Source: Candidatus Competibacter sp.
Lineage (GTDB): Bacteria; Pseudomonadota; Gammaproteobacteria; Competibacterales; Competibacteraceae
Reading direction: 5' to 3'
DNA: 64,000 bases
Assembly (NCBI GenBank): GCA_029624815.1
Contig: JARSSH010000050.1
Location: 1 to 64,000 of the forward strand
Part shown: one piece after another, positions 1 through 11,354 of the stretch
Layout: each line of letters begins with the position of its first letter
Position numbering within the stretch: position 1 is the stretch's first letter
The notes under the pieces: model-generated
Told to the model about the DNA's origin: nothing
Database searches by the model: none
Seen by the model: the letters and a program-made list of their open reading frames with translations, nothing else
Made by a program: the position numbers and the translations under genes

Positions 1-707
1 CACGTCACTCGCTGATCTCATTAAATCTTATGGAAATTGTTGCCCATGACTATAGTGCTGGGAAACACACGGGTCACGCTGGATGCCATGGGCTGCCAGA
101 AAAACATCGCACAACGCATCGTGGATCGCGAAGCCGACTATCTGCTGGTGCTCAAAGCGAACCACGGCAACGACTACGCCGCCGTGCGGGATCATTTCGA
201 ACGGCACTGTTTTGGACGAGGCGCCACCGTTAGGCCCGCGCTGGACGCTTTTGATGAGGGGCATGGCCGGCTAGTCCGCCGAAGGGTCTTCGCCGATCCT
301 CAAGCCGCCTCGCTGGAAACGCTCAAAGATTGGCCCAGGCTCAAGACGGTGCTAGCGGTCGAGGCGATTCGCGGCGTCAACGGCAGCGACCAGGTCAAGG
401 CCGAAATTCGTGACTTCCTCTCCAGCTTCGCGGGCGATCCCTCAATTCTAGCGCAAGCCATCCGCCGTCACTGGTCCATCGAAAACAATTTGCATTGGGT
501 GCTGGATGTCACCTTTCGAGAGGATGACTGCCGGATTCGCGATGCTATCGCCGCCCGCAACTTCGCCCTCCTGCGCAAAATCGCCATCAACTTGCTCACC
601 CAGGATCGTTCCACTAAAGCCAGCTTACGAAGCAAACGCAAAAAGGCCGCCTGGGATGACAACTATATGTTGCAGCTCCTCCAAACCCATTTCATGCGTT
701 AGCCCTG
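1..707 (+). mobile_element. Partial ISAs1-family insertion sequence (right part)
   Basis: The stretch carries the C-terminal part of an ISAs1-type transposase and appears to end at about 707 with the bases gcgttagccctg, just after the transposase stop. The neighbouring group II intron maturase frame loses homology at the same point, which supports a junction there. The left end is not visible: upstream of base 37 the transposase frame contains stop codons at 13-15 and 22-24. The element is therefore either decayed or truncated near the window edge. The terminal repeat identity is from memory of the family and was not checked. Confidence 0.7.
37..702 (+). pseudogene. ISAs1-family transposase, C-terminal fragment
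   Basis: This is a DDE transposase fragment of about 221 residues; full ISAs1 transposases are usually near 370. Visible family landmarks are the DAMGCQK block near residue 18, YLLVLKANHG near residue 35, and HWSIENNLHWVLDV near residue 155, which contains the catalytic glutamate. The first catalytic aspartate and the N-terminal associated domain are missing. The nominal start is a TTG at 37; homology continues slightly upstream through in-frame stops, so no real start exists here. The gene is unlikely to be functional alone. It runs toward the minus-strand intron maturase remnant, which it truncates. Confidence 0.8.
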
Positions 708-1012
708 AGGCGCCAGTAGCTCTTCGAGCTCATGCCCGTCCAGATCGCGGCACGCTTCGGCGTTCCCAGGGCCAGCAGATGGTGGATGCGGTTACGCACC
801 CCGCGCCACTGTTTCCAGTAGCACATGCGGATGCGTCGCCGCGGCCAGTGGTCCAGCTCGGGAATTGGCCGGTAGTAGTCCGAGATGCCGAAGTAGCCCA
901 TCCAACCACGGACATATTCGGCGAGCGTCTTGAGCCGGTAGTCCATGGACACGCCCCAACTCCGACCGGTGAGCTTGCGCAGCCGGTGACGGAAGTCCTG
1001 GTAGGCGCGCTG
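708..1012 (-). pseudogene. ltrA: Group II intron maturase, C-terminal fragment
   Basis: The frame encodes the maturase (X/GIIM) domain, with the recognisable blocks RKLTGRSWGVSMDYRL, YVRGWMGYFGIS and SKSYWRL. It is the continuation of the reverse transcriptase fragment at 2242-3174: removing the IS3 element and one copy of its target repeat joins the two pieces in frame (...WSERV-QRAYQDF...). The usual C-terminal stretch after SKSYW is missing, and a stop arises inside the adjoining ISAs1 end at about 692. Non-functional as it stands. Confidence 0.85.
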
Positions 1013-1015
1013 TAC
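1013..1015. repeat. Target-site duplication TAC, left copy
   Basis: The 3-bp direct repeat flanks the IS3 element; the partner copy is at 2242-2244. Three base pairs is a normal duplication length for IS3 elements. The codon GTA (minus strand) is shared by both halves of the interrupted maturase. Confidence 0.8.
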
Positions 1016-1039
1016 TGCCCCAAAAAAGACTTCCGTCGG

Positions 1040-1897
1040 TTAAGAGAGTAGAGCGGCCCTCTCGTCAGCCAAGACGGCGGCGGGAGTGCGATACTCCAAA
1101 CGACCATGTAATCGTTGTTCGTTATACCAATGCAGGAAGGCGGGCAACAGGGCCTTGAGGTCGGCCAAGGTCTTGACCTCGTGGCGAAAGACGAATTCGT
1201 GCTTGAAGGTGCGGTTCAAGCGTTCGAGGATGCCCATGCCACCGACTTGGGCCACGCGGCAGCGAACCCACTGTCCGATGCTCCGGCAGACCTGCTGGAA
1301 GTGGCCGGAAGTAAAGTCCGAACCGGCATCACTCTGGATCAGGCGCGGTCCGGCGAGTCCAAGGGCTGTTAAGTGTTGATGACCCTCCAGCAAGGTCGCC
1401 GCCGCCCGTTCCCGGCTCAGGGTGGAGGCGGCACGGGCCGCCACGCACTGACGGGTTTTCACGTCCTCCACGAGATAGACCCAGGCCACGCCATCGTCCA
1501 GGCGAAACCGGGTGGCGTCCATCTGGAGCCGCCGTCCTTCAGGCCAGTCGTGTTCGGCGACGACCGCCGGTGTTGGACGCTTCTTTTTGCTGGGAGGTGG
1601 TGGTTGCAAACCCCACTCGCCCATCAATCGTCGAACCCGCTCGCGCCCGATGGGTCGGTGTCGTTGCCGGAGGGTCTGGTAGACTCGCCGATAACCGTAG
1701 GTCGGCTCCGCCGTTGCGACCGCTTGAACCCGAGCACTCGCTCGCGCCTGGACCCGCGCCCGATGGCGCCGTGCCGCGCCCACCCGTGGATAATCCCGTA
1801 ACCGCCAATACGGTTGTCCGACCACGCGCATGAATCCTTTGAGCGAGATCCGTGTTTGATAGTGATGATAAAGCCGCGCCAGGGACTTCCTGTTCAA
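1040..1897 (-). CDS. IS3-family transposase OrfB (DDE integrase domain)
   Basis: OrfB supplies the catalytic core that cuts and joins the IS ends. It has an HTH_21-like region (residues 40-95, with YGYRRVYQTLRQR) and an rve integrase core. The catalytic residues are visible: D in LQMDATRF (about 127), D in SDAGSDFTS (about 190) and E in GILERLNRTFKHEF (about 225). The length of 285 residues is normal. The only possible independent start is a TTG at 1897, inside the end of orfA. It is probably made as an OrfAB fusion by -1 slippage on the A8 run at 1908-1915, which leads from orfA directly into this frame. Confidence 0.92.
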   Translation of the reverse strand: MNRKSLARLYHHYQTRISLKGFMRVVGQPYWRLRDYPRVGAARRHRARVQARASARVQAVATAEPTYGYRRVYQTLRQRHRPIGRERVRRLMGEWGLQPPPPSKKKRPTPAVVAEHDWPEGRRLQMDATRFRLDDGVAWVYLVEDVKTRQCVAARAASTLSRERAAATLLEGHQHLTALGLAGPRLIQSDAGSDFTSGHFQQVCRSIGQWVRCRVAQVGGMGILERLNRTFKHEFVFRHEVKTLADLKALLPAFLHWYNEQRLHGRLEYRTPAAVLADERAALLS

Positions 1898-2181
1898 AAC
1901 CGGGAAATTTTTTTTAGAATCTCCATCTCCAGCGCCTTCTCGCCCAGCAATCTCTTCAGTTGGCCGTTCTCCGCTTCCAGCCGCTGATCCGCTGTCCGCG
2001 TCCTGGCGCCGTTTAACCCTTGGCGACCCGCTTCCAGAAATTGTTCTTTCCAGCGATAAATTTGATTCTCGTTGACACCCCGTTGGCGGCTGATCTCCGC
2101 GACGCTCTGACGTCCGCTTAAAACCGCCAGCACGATGGCCAACTTTTCCTCAACGCTCCAACTCTTGCGTTGCTTCCCCAT
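1894..2181 (-). CDS. IS3-family transposase OrfA (helix-turn-helix)
   Basis: This 95-residue protein is the DNA-binding part of the IS3 transposase. It starts with the HTH block KLAIVLAVLSGRQSVAEISR, continues with NENQIYRWKEQFLEAG, and ends in a leucine-zipper-like helix (LEAENGQLKRLLGEKALEME) that mediates multimerisation in this family. The ATG at 2181 is preferred because GGAGG lies 5 nt upstream; a GTG at 2193 overlaps that ribosome site. Its 3' end overlaps orfB by 4 bp. Confidence 0.9.
   Translation of the reverse strand: MGKQRKSWSVEEKLAIVLAVLSGRQSVAEISRQRGVNENQIYRWKEQFLEAGRQGLNGARTRTADQRLEAENGQLKRLLGEKALEMEILKKISRF
1908..1915 (-). other. Probable -1 programmed frameshift site (A8 run) in the IS3 element
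   Basis: The minus strand reads CTAAAAAAAATTTCCCGG just before the orfA stop codon. Slipping back one base on the A run passes from the orfA frame (KKISRF-stop) into KNFPVL and on into orfB without a stop. A-rich slippery runs at this position are well established in IS3 elements. I saw no obvious downstream stem-loop but did not fold the RNA. Confidence 0.75.
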
Positions 2182-2241
2182 CATGACCTCCACTTAAAGT
2201 CTCTTCAGTTTGACTTCTCATGGAAGAAATTCTTGGGGCAC

Positions 2242-3174
2242 TACACGCTCAGACCAGCGCAGCTTGCCTCCCCGGAAGGTAAAGCCGAGGAATTCGCACT
2301 CGCTGGTCTCGACCACACGGCTTTTGTGCGGGTTGACCACCCGCTTGAGGGTTCCGGTCAAAAAGCGCGACACGCTCGCCATGACCCGTTCACCCGCGCG
2401 ATGGCTCCGCACGAGGATCAACAGATCGTCCGCGTAGCGGACGAACCGATGCCCCCGCCCCTCCAATTCCTTGTCCAGGTCATCCAGCAGGATATTGGCC
2501 AGCAAGGGCGACAGTGGCCCACCTTGCGGCGTACCGATCACCGTTGCGTCAAGGGTATCCCCGACCCGCACACCCGCCCGCGGATACTCGCCGATCAGTG
2601 CCAGCAGCCCTTTATCGCGGACCTTGCGGCCCACTCGGGCCATCAGGACATCGTGCCGGACCGTGTCGAAGAACTTCGCCAAGTCCAGATCGACGGCAAT
2701 CCGGTAGCCATCACCGATGTAGGTTTGTACCCGCCTGAGTGCTCCGTGGGCGGAGCGTCCTGGCCGGAAGCCAAAACTCGAATCCGAGAATCCTGGATCG
2801 AAGATCGGTCCCAGAACTTGCGCAATGGCCTGCTGGATGATGCGGTCTGTCACCGTCGGGATGCCGAGCGGGCGCTCGCCACCGTCGGGCTTGGGGATCG
2901 TCACCCGTCGTACCGGCACTGGCCGGTACGTGCCATCACGCAAGGCTTGGCGGATCGCCGGCCAGTTCGAACGTGCGAACTCCGGGAAGTCCTCGACGCG
3001 CATCCCATCCACACCAGGAGCGCCCTGGTTGGCCTTCACCCGCCTCCATGCCCGTCGCATGTTCTCGCTTTCCAGCACCCGCTCCATCAGGTCGTCGTGC
3101 AAGGCTGGCTGCGTGACCTCACGCCGCGACGCGTCTCCCCCGGACGGGTTCGACGACGCGCGCGAGCAATCCAC
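2242..3174 (-). pseudogene. ltrA: Group II intron reverse transcriptase, N-terminal fragment
   Basis: About 311 residues of a group II intron-encoded protein remain before the IS3 element. All reverse transcriptase blocks are recognisable: GAPGVDGM (RT0/1), IPKPDGGERPLGIP (RT1/2), the catalytic VDLDLAKFFDTV, GTPQGGPLSPLLANI, and the YADD active site in RFVRYADDLLIL, then FLGFTFRGGKLRW (RT7). The stop comes from the IS end (VPQEFLP). The catalytic palm is therefore intact, but the maturase domain needed for splicing is on the other side of the IS. The start ATG at 3174 gives a normal N-terminus. Confidence 0.9.
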
Positions 3175-3636
3175 GGCTCCGCCTTGTCTTCTCCTGTTCG
3201 GCCCTTCATCGCGCCGCCCGTCCGCGGGCGGGCAATTACTATGGCCTCGGCTGACTTCTGTCCCGTCACGCCGAACGTTGCCGTCCGGCGCGCTGCCCGA
3301 GTCGCGGTAGGGTCCGGTGGTGATTCCCGCCCTTTCGGGCTGGCCCGCAGTCCGGCTCCCCTGGCGACCACAGCCCCCGTAGGGTTCGATGGCCTATCCA
3401 GCCCTTTCGGACTGGGCCTCAGTTCGACTCCCATAGCGGTACGGGCTGCATGCGGGACAGATCTCCCCGGATAAGGACATGAACTTTCCGTGCACAACCG
3501 CCGCATTTACCCTATCCCCTGCACCTGGCGGGCTTCGTCACCTTGTGCTGACTCGCCCGGGGACTGAGCCTTCCATGCGGTTTCTGTCCGTCGGCTCGCA
3601 CGTTTGCACTCGGGCTTCCTCCAGACAGACCCTCAC
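3175..3636 (-). ncRNA. Group II intron 5' RNA domains upstream of the reverse transcriptase
   Basis: The gap upstream of the reverse transcriptase ORF has no coding gene but is rich in short GC stems with GAAA-type loops. Minus-strand examples are CAGTCCGAAAGGGCTGG and GCCAGCCCGAAAGGGCGG. It also holds phrases I associate with bacterial group II introns, such as GACGGGACAGAAGTCAGC shortly before the ORF. This would be domains I-IV of the intron RNA. Open reading frames here have no recognisable product. The 5' boundary is either 3601 (GTGCG) or 3636 (GTGAG). Confidence 0.65.
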
Positions 3637-3651
3637 GGGGCTGCCCTTGCC

Positions 3652-3727
3652 GGCGGATCAAGCCGACATCGGCCGTCAAAGCCTTCGGCTTTTCCGACCT
3701 CGCGGCTTATCCGCCGCCCCGTTAGCC
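3652..3727 (+). other. attC-like recombination site (partial) upstream of the first toxin-antitoxin cassette
   Basis: An imperfect hairpin pairs GGCGGATCAAGCCG (3652-3665) with CGGCTTATCCGCC (3703-3715). There is one unpaired C (3659), as expected of the extrahelical base in an attC L'' arm. Inside it TCGG/CCGA and AAAGCC-TTC-GGCTTT (3678-3692) form the apical stem, separated by an unequal internal loop. It ends at the core-like GTTAGCC (3721-3727). The matching R'' arm would lie where the group II intron begins, so the site looks invaded by the intron. No integrase gene is in the window. Confidence 0.5.
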
Positions 3728-3731
3728 ATGG

Positions 3732-3760
3732 TTGACAACATGTATCCCATAGGATACAAT
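3732..3760 (+). promoter_or_regulatory. Sigma-70-type promoter with an inverted-repeat operator for the HigBA-like module
   Basis: A perfect -35 TTGACA (3732-3737) is followed after 17 bp by TACAAT (3755-3760). A perfect inverted repeat, GTATCC-CATA-GGATAC (3742-3757), covers the spacer and most of the -10, a good position for autorepression by the antitoxin. The toxin ATG at 3766 is only 5 nt past the -10, so the transcript would be leaderless or nearly so. Confidence 0.8.
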
Positions 3761-3765
3761 GCTTC

Positions 3766-4064
3766 ATGCGTATACGAACAACACTGATCTACCGAGATTG
3801 GATCAATGCACTCAAGGATCGTGCCGCACGAGCGAGAATCCAAGTGCGCGTTGATCGTTTAGCCCATGGAAATCCCGGCCAGCATCGGCATCTGACACAA
3901 GGCATCTCAGAACTCAAAGTCGATGTGGGTCCAGGTTATCTCGGGTGTATTACACCCAGCGAGGCGAAGAACTCATCATCTTGCTTGTCGGTGGTGACAA
4001 AACATCCCAACAACAAGATATCGCCTTGGCTCAAGAGCTTGCGCGCAATCTTCAGGAGCCATAG
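3766..4064 (+). pseudogene. HigB/RelE-like toxin, frameshifted
   Basis: The first 58 codons encode the N-terminal part of a RelE/HigB-type 'addiction module killer' protein (TLIYRDWINALKDRAARARI, then LTQGISELKVDVGPGY). The frame is then lost: after GGT TAT the DNA reads CTCGGGTGTAT where CGGGTGTAT is expected. Removing one TC of the TCTC at 3939-3942 restores RVYYTQRGEELIILLVGGDK and continues to a stop at 4062-4064. That is 2 nt before the antitoxin start, exactly as these operons are built. The 2-bp duplication therefore inactivates the toxin unless a sequencing error is involved. Without repair the frame runs on to 4089 with an unrelated tail. Confidence 0.85.
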
Positions 4065-4066
4065 TC

Positions 4067-4384
4067 ATGCATCAATTCATCTCTACTGAAAAAACCGTCA
4101 CCAAAACGGTGGCCTACGATGTTGCAGAACAACTCCGAACGCCCGAAGAAATGGCGGCCTATCTGGATGCTTGGCTGACTGAAGCGCCTGAAGACATTTC
4201 GGGCATCGCACGTGCGCTAGGTGACATTGCGCGAGCCAAAGGCATGGCGCAGGTGGCCAAAGAGGCTGGACTGAGCAGAGAAAGTCTTTACAAAGCGCTT
4301 AGTGGCAACGGCAACCCCAGCTTTGCAACCATTCTAAAAGTCACCAAAGCACTGGGTATCGGGCTGCACGCCGGCGTAGCATAA
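4067..4384 (+). CDS. HigA-like antitoxin (XRE family, addiction module antidote)
   Basis: This 105-residue protein has a short N-terminal dimerisation or toxin-binding part (residues 1-50) and a Cro/CI-type helix-turn-helix (about 55-100, with GMAQVAKEAGLSRESLYKAL and NPSFATILKVTKALGIGL). It should neutralise the upstream RelE/HigB-like toxin and repress the operon through the inverted repeat at 3742-3757. The toxin-first order is typical of HigBA. The antitoxin is intact while the toxin is frameshifted. Base composition is visibly more AT-rich than the surrounding chromosome, in line with transfer. Confidence 0.88.
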   Translation: MHQFISTEKTVTKTVAYDVAEQLRTPEEMAAYLDAWLTEAPEDISGIARALGDIARAKGMAQVAKEAGLSRESLYKALSGNGNPSFATILKVTKALGIGLHAGVA

Positions 4385-4393
4385 AACCACCAT

Positions 4394-4454
4394 GGCTAAC
4401 TATCGGTTCAACACGGATCGCCTTCGGCGACCGCGTTACCCTATTCGTTATACC
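4394..4454 (+). other. attC-like site between the two toxin-antitoxin cassettes
   Basis: The site starts with GGCTAAC (4394-4400), 9 bp after the antitoxin stop, and ends with GTTATACC (4447-4454). A central hairpin CGG-A-TCGCC-TTC-GGCGA-CCG (4414-4433) has one bulged A. Outer arms pair partly, with an unpaired C at 4409. CCATGGCTAAC (4390-4400) is the exact reverse complement of GTTAGCCATGG at 3721-3731, the start of this module. That is the expected relation between the 5' end of a gene cassette and the R'' core of its own attC. Confidence 0.55.
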
Positions 4455-4494: not shown

Positions 4495-4513
4495 CCTCGG
4501 TTTGGAGGTGTCC

Positions 4514-4756
4514 ATGACCATGTTAAATGCCACCGAAGCGCGTTCTAAGCTATACAGCCTTATCGATGAGGCGGCGATATCGCACCAACCTATTGTAATT
4601 AAAGGAAAAAGATCGAACGCGATCCTTATATCCGAGGACGATTGGAACTCGATCAATGAGACCTTATATCTTATTTCAATCCCCGGGATGCGTGACTCCA
4701 TCCGCAAGGGAATGGAAGAGAATGTCGAGAAATGTAGCAAGGATTTAGATTGGTGA
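4514..4756 (+). CDS. yefM: YefM/Phd-family antitoxin
   Basis: This antitoxin of about 80 residues begins MTMLNATEARSKLYSLIDEA, the standard Phd/YefM N-terminal DNA-binding fold. KGKRSNAILISEDDWNSINET follows, then a flexible C-terminal toxin-binding tail. The ATG at 4514 is chosen because GGAGGTG (4504-4510) precedes it; an in-frame ATG at 4520 is the alternative. It overlaps the toxin start by 4 bp, so the two are translationally coupled. The gene is more AT-rich than flanking chromosomal genes. The expected role is to neutralise the downstream endoribonuclease and autorepress via the CGTACGCTA repeats. Confidence 0.9.
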   Translation: MTMLNATEARSKLYSLIDEAAISHQPIVIKGKRSNAILISEDDWNSINETLYLISIPGMRDSIRKGMEENVEKCSKDLDW

Positions 4757-5016
4757 CGTGGGAATTACGCTATACGAAGTTGGCTCAAAAGGATGCGAAA
4801 AAGCTCGCTTCGGTTAATCTAAAGAATAAGGCAATGGAGTTGCTGAATGTTATTTCAGAAAATCCATTTCAAAATCCACCGCCCTATGAAACGCTGGTTG
4901 GCGATTTAGCGGGTGCTTATTCTAGGCGTATTAATATTCAGCATCGCCTTGTGTATCAAGTTTTAGAACAAGAAAAAATCGTAAAAATTTTGCGTATGTG
5001 GTCGCACTACGAGTAA
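4753..5016 (+). CDS. yoeB: YoeB-family mRNA endoribonuclease toxin
   Basis: The 87-residue protein has the RelE/YoeB fold: WELRYTKLAQKDAKKL at the N-terminus, the central PPYETLVGDLAGAYSRRIN, and the C-terminal HRLVYQV...KILRMWSHYE, which carries the conserved His/Tyr end of Txe/YoeB toxins. The GTG at 4753 shares GTGA with the antitoxin stop; a TTG at 4750 is also possible. YoeB toxins cut mRNA at the ribosomal A site. Unlike the upstream toxin this one appears intact. The attC-like core GGTATAAC begins 2 bp after its stop. Confidence 0.92.
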   Translation: MTWELRYTKLAQKDAKKLASVNLKNKAMELLNVISENPFQNPPPYETLVGDLAGAYSRRINIQHRLVYQVLEQEKIVKILRMWSHYE

Positions 5017-5017
5017 C

Positions 5018-5040
5018 GGTATAACAAAGCGCTCAAATAC
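5018..5040 (+). other. attC-like R''-L'' arm after the YefM/YoeB module
   Basis: GGTATAAC (5018-5025) is the exact reverse complement of GTTATACC (4447-4454), the start of this cassette. The following AAAGCGCTCAA resembles the L'' arm of attC sites such as the Vibrio cholerae repeats. I could not find a convincing L'-R' partner downstream. A weak candidate, CTTGCGCATGTCGCTAC, lies near 5085-5101. The second half is probably degenerate or deleted. Confidence 0.45.
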
Positions 5041-5160: not shown

Positions 5161-5283
5161 ATGGCCGCGCTTGAAGTTGTGAAGATCGACATGAAACAAA
5201 TGACGGCGATTCCCCAAGAGACCAGCCAGACCTGCTGGCTGCCGGGCCGAGCCAAGCCTGGAAGCGCCCGCCATGCGCGATGA
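5161..5283 (+). pseudogene. Short ORF, possible N-terminal remnant of a papain-like or C39-like protease
   Basis: An ATG at 5161 after AGGAG (5149-5153) opens a 40-codon frame reading MAALEVVKIDMKQMTAIPQE, then TSQTCWLPGRAKPG. The pattern of a Q-x3-Cys-Trp near the N-terminus recalls papain-like or C39-like cysteine proteases, but nothing of the remaining fold is present. The frame then runs into the start of the next gene. It may be a truncated gene left behind at the edge of the cassette region, or chance. Function is not established. Confidence 0.25.
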
Positions 5284-9277: not shown

Positions 9278-10629
9278 ACGCCATCGTGTCCGCCACCGCG
9301 CCGGGCAGTTGGGGCCGTTACCCGCCCTCCAAGCCGCGCCAGGTTCTGCACTGCCGCGACCCGCGAACGCTCATCCTGCCGGCGGAACCCTTGTCTTGCC
9401 TGCCTTTCGGCAACGGTCGCAGTTACGGCGATGTCTGCCTGAACGACGGTGGCGCCCTGCTCTGCACACGGAAACTGGACCGCTTTATCGCCTTCGATCC
9501 GGTCATGGGATCGTTACGGGCGGAAGCCGGCGTATTGCTTTCGGAAATTCTGGCGCTGGTCGTCCCGCAAGGCTGGTTTTTGCCGGTTACCCCCGGCACC
9601 CGGTTTGTCACCCTGGGCGGAGCCGTGGCCAATGATGTGCATGGCAAGAACCACCATGTCGCCGGCAGTTTCGGCGGTCACGTCCGCGCCTTTGAACTGC
9701 TGCGCTCCGACGGCGAGCACCGGCTTTGCACGCCGACGCACCACGCCGACTGGTTCCGGGCGACGGTCGGCGGGCTCGGCCTGACCGGGCTGATCGCCTG
9801 GGTGGAAATCCAGTTGCAACGCATCGCCAACCCCTGGATCGTGGCCGAGAACCGCCGCTTTGCCAATCTGGACGAGTTCCTGGCGCTCAACGACGACTAC
9901 GAGGCGCGCTATCCCTACATCGTGTCCTGGATCGATTGCGCCGCCCAAGGTCGGGCGCTGGGCCGGGGAATTTACATGGCCGGCATGCATGCGCCACCCG
10001 GTCTGATGAAATCGCCGCCCGCGGAACCTCGCGCGTTGACCGTACCGTTCGCGCCGCCGGTCTCGCTGATCAACAACTTGAGCGTGCGCGGGTTCAACCG
10101 GCTCTACTATCGTCTGCCGCGTCCGGCGCGTGGATTGACGCCGTATCAACCGTTCTTCCATCCGCTGGACAAGCTGCTGGAGTGGAACCGGCTGTACGGG
10201 CGACGGGGCTTTTTTCAATACCAGTGCGTCATCCCCCCCGCCGACGCCCGCGAAGCCTTGCGGGAAATTCTGGCCCGCGTCGCCGCCAGCGGTCAGGGTT
10301 CGATGCTGGCGGTGCTCAAGCGCTTCGGCGACAAGACATCGGGCGGCTTGCTGTCTTTCCCTCGGCCCGGCGTGACCCTGGCGCTGGATTTTCCCAACCG
10401 GGGCCGGGAGACGCTTGATCTGCTGGAGCGGCTCGACGAGGTCACCCGGCAGGCCGATGGAGCGGTCTATCCCGCCAAGGATGCCCGAATGAGCGGCGAC
10501 AGCTTCCGCCAGTATTACCCACGCTGGGAAGCATTCAGCCGCCATATCGATCCCCGCTTCTCCTCCAGTTTCTGGCGGCGGGTCATGGCTGACCGAACTT
10601 CACGGGAAACGACATGCGCAATATCTTGA
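9274..10629 (+). CDS. FAD-linked oxidase, DprE1-like (decaprenylphospho-ribose 2'-oxidase homologue)
   Basis: The 451-residue protein has an N-terminal PCMH-type FAD-binding domain, with the block LPFGNGRSYGDVCLNDGG near residue 45 and VTLGGAVANDVHGKNHHVAG near 110. A C-terminal substrate domain follows. The GNGRSYGD motif and HGKNHH are shared with DprE1, which oxidises the 2'-OH of polyprenyl-phospho-ribose in the first half of the epimerisation to arabinose. The GTG at 9274 overlaps the previous stop; a GTG at 9286 is possible. It overlaps the next SDR gene by 16 bp, so the pair is probably co-translated like DprE1/DprE2. Confidence 0.85.
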   Translation: MNAIVSATAPGSWGRYPPSKPRQVLHCRDPRTLILPAEPLSCLPFGNGRSYGDVCLNDGGALLCTRKLDRFIAFDPVMGSLRAEAGVLLSEILALVVPQGWFLPVTPGTRFVTLGGAVANDVHGKNHHVAGSFGGHVRAFELLRSDGEHRLCTPTHHADWFRATVGGLGLTGLIAWVEIQLQRIANPWIVAENRRFANLDEFLALNDDYEARYPYIVSWIDCAAQGRALGRGIYMAGMHAPPGLMKSPPAEPRALTVPFAPPVSLINNLSVRGFNRLYYRLPRPARGLTPYQPFFHPLDKLLEWNRLYGRRGFFQYQCVIPPADAREALREILARVAASGQGSMLAVLKRFGDKTSGGLLSFPRPGVTLALDFPNRGRETLDLLERLDEVTRQADGAVYPAKDARMSGDSFRQYYPRWEAFSRHIDPRFSSSFWRRVMADRTSRETTCAIS

Positions 10630-11354
10630 TCATCGGCGCCACTTCGGCCATCGCCGAAGCCACCGCCCGCCGTTTCGCCGCCGCTGGCGCCCGCTTCCAC
10701 CTGGTCGGGCGCAATGCCGAAAAACTCGCCGCGATCGCCCGCGATTTGGAAATTCGCTCCGGTCAGCCAGTCGCATGGGAAAGCCTCGACCTCGATCGAC
10801 TGGATTTGCATCCGGCCCTGCTGGAGCGGGCCGAACACGCGCTCGGCGGTATCGACGTGGCATTGATCGCCCACGGGATCCTGCCCGATCAAGCCGCATG
10901 CCAGCAGTCGGTCGAAAAAACCCTGGCGGCGATCCACACGAATGCCCTGAGCGTGATCAGCCTGGCGACGCTGCTGGCCAACGACTTTGAAATGCGCGGG
11001 CGTGGAACGCTGATCGCCATCGGCTCGGTCGCCGGCGACCGGGGCCGGCAAAGCAACTACGTCTATGGCGCCGCCAAGGGCATGGTGAATCTGTTCCTGC
11101 AAGGGTTGCGTAACCGCTTGAGCAAAAAAGGCGTCCAGGTGATTACCATCAAGCCGGGGTTCGTGGACACGCCAATGACCGCCGCGTTCGAGAAAAAGGG
11201 CCCGCTCTGGGCGCAGCCCGACCAGATCGCGAAGGGCATCGTCGCCGCCGTCGAGCGTGGCCGGGATGAGGCGTATCTGCCCGGTCTCTGGCGTTGGATC
11301 ATGCTGGTGATCCGACATATCCCCGAGGGGATATTCAAGCGGTTAAGGCTTTGA
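10614..11354 (+). CDS. Short-chain dehydrogenase, DprE2-like
   Basis: This 246-residue SDR should reduce the 2'-keto intermediate made by the upstream oxidase, completing ribose-to-arabinose epimerisation on a polyprenyl carrier. The cofactor loop GATSAIAEATARRF (residues 8-21) replaces the usual TGxxxGxG, as in DprE2-type proteins. The catalytic Ser lies in IGSVAGDRG and the Tyr/Lys in YVYGAAKG (YxxxK). A C-terminal hydrophobic stretch (WIMLVIRHIPEGIF) suggests membrane association. It is the last gene of the operon before a 13-bp gap. Confidence 0.85.
   Translation: MRNILIIGATSAIAEATARRFAAAGARFHLVGRNAEKLAAIARDLEIRSGQPVAWESLDLDRLDLHPALLERAEHALGGIDVALIAHGILPDQAACQQSVEKTLAAIHTNALSVISLATLLANDFEMRGRGTLIAIGSVAGDRGRQSNYVYGAAKGMVNLFLQGLRNRLSKKGVQVITIKPGFVDTPMTAAFEKKGPLWAQPDQIAKGIVAAVERGRDEAYLPGLWRWIMLVIRHIPEGIFKRLRL

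Follow-up and report, generated by a model that had tools for sequence, protein, structure and literature searches.

A 5'-truncated group IIC-attC intron remnant adjoining an attC-like hairpin in a Candidatus Competibacter genome

Results

An intron remnant broken by two insertion sequences

The window, by which we mean the whole stretch of 64,000 nucleotides that was analysed, begins at base 1 of its contig (C50), and the features considered here lie toward that end (Table 1). Reading of the sequence alone had proposed a group II intron on the minus strand with its reverse transcriptase (RT) gene in two pieces. Both points were borne out: two Rfam group II RNA families match the minus strand, and the RT domain and the maturase domain, which are separate in the window, are contiguous in the relatives, whose RT also extends beyond the cut at position 708. 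Between the two halves lies an IS3-family element with the ends TGTACTGCCCC...GGGGCACTACA, and the trinucleotide CGC is duplicated at its flanks (1008-1010 and 2246-2248). A second element, of the ISAs1 family, cuts the 3' part of the intron and runs off the start of the contig. What is left of the intron lacks nt 1 to ~94 at its 5' end, and nothing remains of it beyond the RT C-terminus on the 3' side.

Table 1. Coordinates of the intron remnant, the insertion sequences and the cassette features in the window
Feature	Position	Strand	Evidence
ISAs1-family element cutting the intron 3' part	1..707	+	NF033564, 181 bits; junction 707/708
Group IIC-attC intron remnant	708..3653	-	Alignment to full-length relatives (starts 3656-3651, ends 708); Rfam D1D4-3, D1D4-1
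Intron-encoded RT, C-terminal part (maturase domain X), cut short	708..1011	-	GIIM PF08388, 65 bits
IS3-family element within the RT gene	1011..2245	-	NF033516 matches; ends read directly
Intron-encoded RT, N-terminal part (RT domain)	2246..3174	-	TIGR04416 (group_II_RT_mat), 339 bits; RVT_1, 128 bits
Intron RNA just upstream of the RT ORF	3201..3292	-	Rfam group-II-D1D4-1, 64.8 bits
Intron domain I region	3476..3642	-	Rfam group-II-D1D4-3, 133.5 bits
attC site without R'' (5' exon of the intron)	3651..3727	+	Fold, stem, genome and genus copies, exon test
HigBA-like toxin-antitoxin cassette	3722..4393	+	TIGR02683, TIGR02684
Second attC-like site (GGCTAAC ... GTTATAC)	4394..4453	+	Core-pair scan, fold
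YefM/YoeB toxin-antitoxin cassette	4502..5016	+	TIGR02116, 96 bits; PF02604, 54 bits
Third attC-like site, left half (GTATAACAAAGCGCTCAA)	5019..5040	+	Read directly; no partner arm seen

The missing 3' part was sought beyond the window. Neither the intron 3' end nor D5 nor the 3' exon was found in the rest of the assembly, and D5/D6 with the 3' boundary CCUACYCGAU, which the plasmid relatives possess, are absent from the window intron and from the rest of the assembly, the contig being cut by the IS element. A profile search for the En domain gave no match in the remaining part of the RT, whose C-terminus is cut; the plasmid relatives are proteins of 443 aa. The genome holds no second intact copy of the intron, and its single other RT match is distant. 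Because the copy has neither a 5' splice site nor the 3' domains, it is expected to be dead and should neither splice nor move.

The RT groups with class C

A class C RT had been anticipated from the sequence, and the comparisons agree with this. The best match in the PDB was GsI-IIC (343 bits, 61% identical over 272 residues), followed by the E. rectale and R. intestinalis RTs (~284 bits) and LtrA (143 bits). In a maximum-likelihood tree of 92 RTs, the window RT fell with the Ectothiorhodospira introns (100/96), and those of Thiorhodococcus and Rhabdochromatium came next; its closest relatives, represented by the Ectothiorhodospira intron L012, are ~90% identical to it. The introns found in class 1 integrons on enterobacterial plasmids, which lie between cassettes and antisense to them, have RTs that are 56-62% identical. 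Judging from the nearest solved structures, the boundary consensus of the relatives and the RNA families, the RT is of class C; the assignment is based on these three because few reference RTs of other classes were among those compared.

The ratio dN/dS was ~0.16 against Ectothiorhodospira over 307 codons, with no frameshift in the compared part before the IS element, and was 0.18 for the relatives L012 and L019. Since the gene is open apart from its breaks and dN/dS is this low, the RT was under selection until recently, and its inactivation looks recent.

The adjoining hairpin resembles attC sites of the genus

The bulged 13-bp hairpin that had been recognised beside the intron proved real on folding (GGCGGATAAGCCG / CGGCTT-G-ATCCGCC; minimum free energy -44.6 kcal/mol with RNA parameters). 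The G at 3659 is extrahelical, and the bottom strand folds with a bulge, as an integron attC does. The R' core GTTAGCC (3721-3727, plus strand) has an exact GTT and a single mismatch to GTTRRRY, in RRR, and the R'' core RYYYAAC is gone at the intron junction, where copies elsewhere in the genus carry an AAC core. A search of both strands of the 64 kb gave three perfect stems of 6+7 bp with one bulge, the present hairpin among them. The stem alone is thus uncommon and not unique, and specificity comes from the GTT core and from the repeated copies.

Near-identical copies of the hairpin that contain no intron lie at the start of contig C46 and at the end of contig C69 of the same genome, and congeners have up to 16 each. 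The copies are conserved through GTT and then diverge, giving cassette-like boundaries, and this divergence points to attC sites with different cassettes behind them. From these comparisons the hairpin is an attC of a genus-specific family that is exonic to the intron, in agreement with the earlier proposal that it is the 5' exon. That the hairpin might instead be a part of the intron was considered and rejected; it occurs alone elsewhere in the genome.

Both of those contigs end inside an attC (C46:1-55 and C69:44373-44429) with an overlap of ~55 nt, and the repeated attC sites probably broke the assembly at these ends. The right half of the window attC is this ~55-nt repeat, and the intron junction lies outside it. 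Because other contigs end in the repeat, the link between the attC and the HigBA cassette rests on the assembler.

The intron lacks its 5' end

Class C introns share the 5' boundary consensus GUNYGCCNRGCAUGG (PMC4028801). The common 5' end of the relatives, GTACGCCCGGCATGG, fits this consensus, and the consensus is exact in the close relatives. When the window was searched with up to 3 mismatches allowed, none was found near the hairpin, the nearest on the same strand being at 3046-3060 and 4165-4179. Homology in the window starts at nt 95 of the L012 intron, and nt 1-94 are absent. As read from the assembly, the junction between intron and attC lies at ~3653/3652, with a few bases compatible with both sides. 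The possibility that the first intron-like bases at the hairpin are the true 5' end was rejected, ~94 nt being missing. The sequence-only reading, which had placed the intron directly against the attC, is essentially right and needs one correction: the hairpin is exonic and adjoins the intron, but the intron does not truly begin at the junction, where nt ~95 abuts the hairpin. Of the two outcomes named beforehand as contradicting that reading, an RT outside class C and an intronic hairpin, neither was observed.

Another locus, L080, has three IIC-attC introns (at 353, 2383 and 4412) in exact head-to-tail tandem behind one attC-like hairpin, which suggests repeated insertion at the same exon. 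The sequence ...CCCGAT|GTACGCCC... between the tandem copies confirms both intron boundaries for the lineage. Neither boundary was found in the window copy. Because truncation makes both boundary tests fail, the copy is termed a fragment of the class C family and not a complete member.

Relatives of the intron sit behind attC hairpins

According to published work, IIC-attC introns target TTGT|T within the R'' of the bottom strand of attC (PMC7923331). We scored the 5' exons of the relatives for a bulged stem 8 nt before GTGTACG and for an upstream partner arm that follows an AAC core. The test covered 60 distinct relatives whose 5' exon could be read, with shuffled exons as a control. This strict test was passed by 36 of the 60 relatives, as against 0.56% of the shuffles, the count being highest at an offset of 8, and was failed by the other 24. 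The window exon passed it at offset 8 with 0 mismatches. With GTACG taken as the intron start, 10 nt separate the TTGT|T point from the bulge. Of these, 6 or more remain in the window, so that the kept exon ends at most 4 nt from the expected insertion point, R'' and the intron 5' end both being missing. The intron occupies the bottom strand of the attC, where it runs antisense to the cassettes with the hairpin as its 5' exon, and the spacing is that of the relatives. Orientation and position thus fit IIC-attC insertion, as had been argued from the sequence. Targeting of attC hairpins by this lineage is constant across many phyla in the comparison of relatives. At three other loci (L032:1248/3769, L040:948/3759 and L073:961/2344) there are two intron copies, and a separate hairpin exon precedes each of them.

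For many class C introns the insertion site follows a transcription terminator (PMC4424553, PMC4028801), and the hairpin could on that account be read as an intrinsic terminator and the intron as a terminator-targeting member of the class. We regard this as very improbable: the hairpin copies terminate in GTTRRRY-like cores with unrelated sequence beyond them, a congener genome holds as many as 16 copies, the hairpin in the window precedes toxin-antitoxin cassettes, and close relatives pass the attC exon test. It also seems improbable, if somewhat less so, that the intron was inserted elsewhere and that its truncated 5' part was joined to the attC by a chance rearrangement. Such an event would be compatible with the absence of both the true 5' end and the 3' exon, but the nearest relatives are found at attC hairpins, and both orientation and spacing are canonical here.

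A probable decayed array of toxin-antitoxin cassettes

Beyond the hairpin lie two toxin-antitoxin cassettes and two further attC-like sites (Table 1). In the first cassette the antitoxin gene (4067-4384, plus strand) is intact, and the HigB-like toxin ORF (3766-4089) matches its family model of 95 positions over residues 2-58 only. Its later part seems to continue in another frame, and a frameshift in the toxin gene is therefore probable. The array probably ends near 5040, where the third attC-like site seems to be halved; the yjgA/darP-like ORF that starts at 5273 would lie beyond that end.

A clear IntI gene is present on contig C54 with attC-like sites beside it. Another contig of the same genome, C42, encodes an IntI-like integrase of 528 aa (L101:7420-9003) with ~200 extra N-terminal residues, in which Pfam matches begin at residue 216, and attC-like sites lie beside this gene at 10091-10149 and 10605-10733. 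A congener has an IntI-like integrase of ~530 aa (L146). The earlier suggestion that the intron is one more sign of an integron array holds up, and the intron with its attC lends further support to reading 3651 to ~5040 as a decayed integron cassette array.

Discussion

Insertion at the attC and origin of the truncation

Taken together, these data make it very probable that a IIC-attC intron was inserted at the bottom strand of the attC beside R'' and was then truncated at its 5' end, split by one IS element and cut at its 3' side by another. Established at the locus are the class C RT, the exonic hairpin of attC type, the antisense orientation, the canonical spacing, the 5' truncation and both IS elements; we infer that the intron reached this particular attC by retrohoming, and also the order in which the breaks arose. 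In the proposed course of events, a group IIC-attC intron would have entered the folded bottom strand of the attC adjoining R'', and such an entry would leave the intron antisense to the cassettes with the hairpin as its 5' exon. The copy would then have lost, or would never have received, the first ~94 intron nt and a few exon bases including R''; the IS3-family element would have split the intron and the ISAs1-family element would have cut its 3' side. Intact relatives would splice, and their movement would proceed through reverse splicing at TTGT|T next to the hairpin and then reverse transcription. Against this explanation, the exact insertion point is unreadable because the R'' half and the intron 5' end are both gone, and the 3' exon is absent from the assembly. 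The insertion took away the R'' half of this attC, and the preceding cassette would be expected to be immobilised as a result.

Recombination by IntI is an unlikely origin of the junction. IntI crosses over at G|TT of R', and the junction lies at L''/R''.

How the intron came to lack its 5' end can be explained in two ways. In the first, a full-length intron was inserted and a later deletion of ~100 bp over the 5' junction took nt 1-94 and R''. We give this nearly an even chance. The locus is decaying in other ways, having received two IS insertions; the dN/dS of ~0.16 and the lack of a frameshift before the IS element indicate selection until recently; and 5' truncation is rare among the relatives. 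On the other hand, one end of the deletion must by chance fall a few bases from the exon-intron boundary.

In the second, the insertion itself was aborted: synthesis of the cDNA ended ~94 nt before the intron 5' end, and repair through CCG/CGG microhomology linked it to a nearly intact attC exon, so that the copy was dead on arrival. This is somewhat short of an even chance in our view, and it is a refinement of insertion at the attC bottom strand, not an opponent of it. Beyond the bulge 6 or more exon nt survive, and insertion normally takes place at 10 nt, so that almost no target was lost, and the few junction bases compatible with both sides are as such repair would leave them. However, 5' truncation is rare in the family, with one other clear case among the 79 checkable copies. 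The flush junction leans towards an aborted insertion, but weakly, because an intact hairpin was needed for the locus to be noticed. No clear case of 5' truncation flush with an attC was found among the 79 copies. The other clearly truncated intron, L138, has no clear attC adjoining it, and the 5' end of L068 is obscured by an assembly gap. Tentatively, the junction may be a fossil of aborted retrohoming, comparable to the 5' truncation of LINEs, at the hairpin target.

Comparison with known systems

The plasmid-borne introns in class 1 integrons (L105, L106, L107 and L109, corresponding to WP_071681923, WP_069625236, BBV68889 and WP_048336621), for whose type the name S.ma.I2 is found in the reference list of one source (PMC4424553), resemble the window intron in their class C RT, the hairpin exon on the attC bottom strand, the antisense orientation and the Rfam families D1D4-3 and D1D4-1. 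They differ in being full length, with a GTACGCC... 5' end and D5, whereas the window copy has neither and is split by an IS element. The closest relatives, the introns of Ectothiorhodospira (L012-L016) and Thiorhodococcus drewsii (L019), have the same RNA as that in the window but still possess nt 1-94 as well as the 3' end ...CCCGAT, both of which are missing from the window copy. GsI-IIC (PDB 6ar1) likewise has a class C RT and falls outside the immediate clade of the window RT in the tree.

A similar remnant has been described. UHB.F1 is a 5'-truncated IIC-attC intron in a cassette array from a soda lake and, going by its description, is like the window copy in being truncated at the 5' end, antisense and within an array that has toxin-antitoxin cassettes; unlike the window copy, it retains D5 and D6 (PMC7923331). 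Most copies of group II introns in bacteria are truncated or inactivated (PMC4424553), and the intron in the window is an ordinary relic of the known IIC-attC lineage, related to the introns of purple sulfur bacteria.
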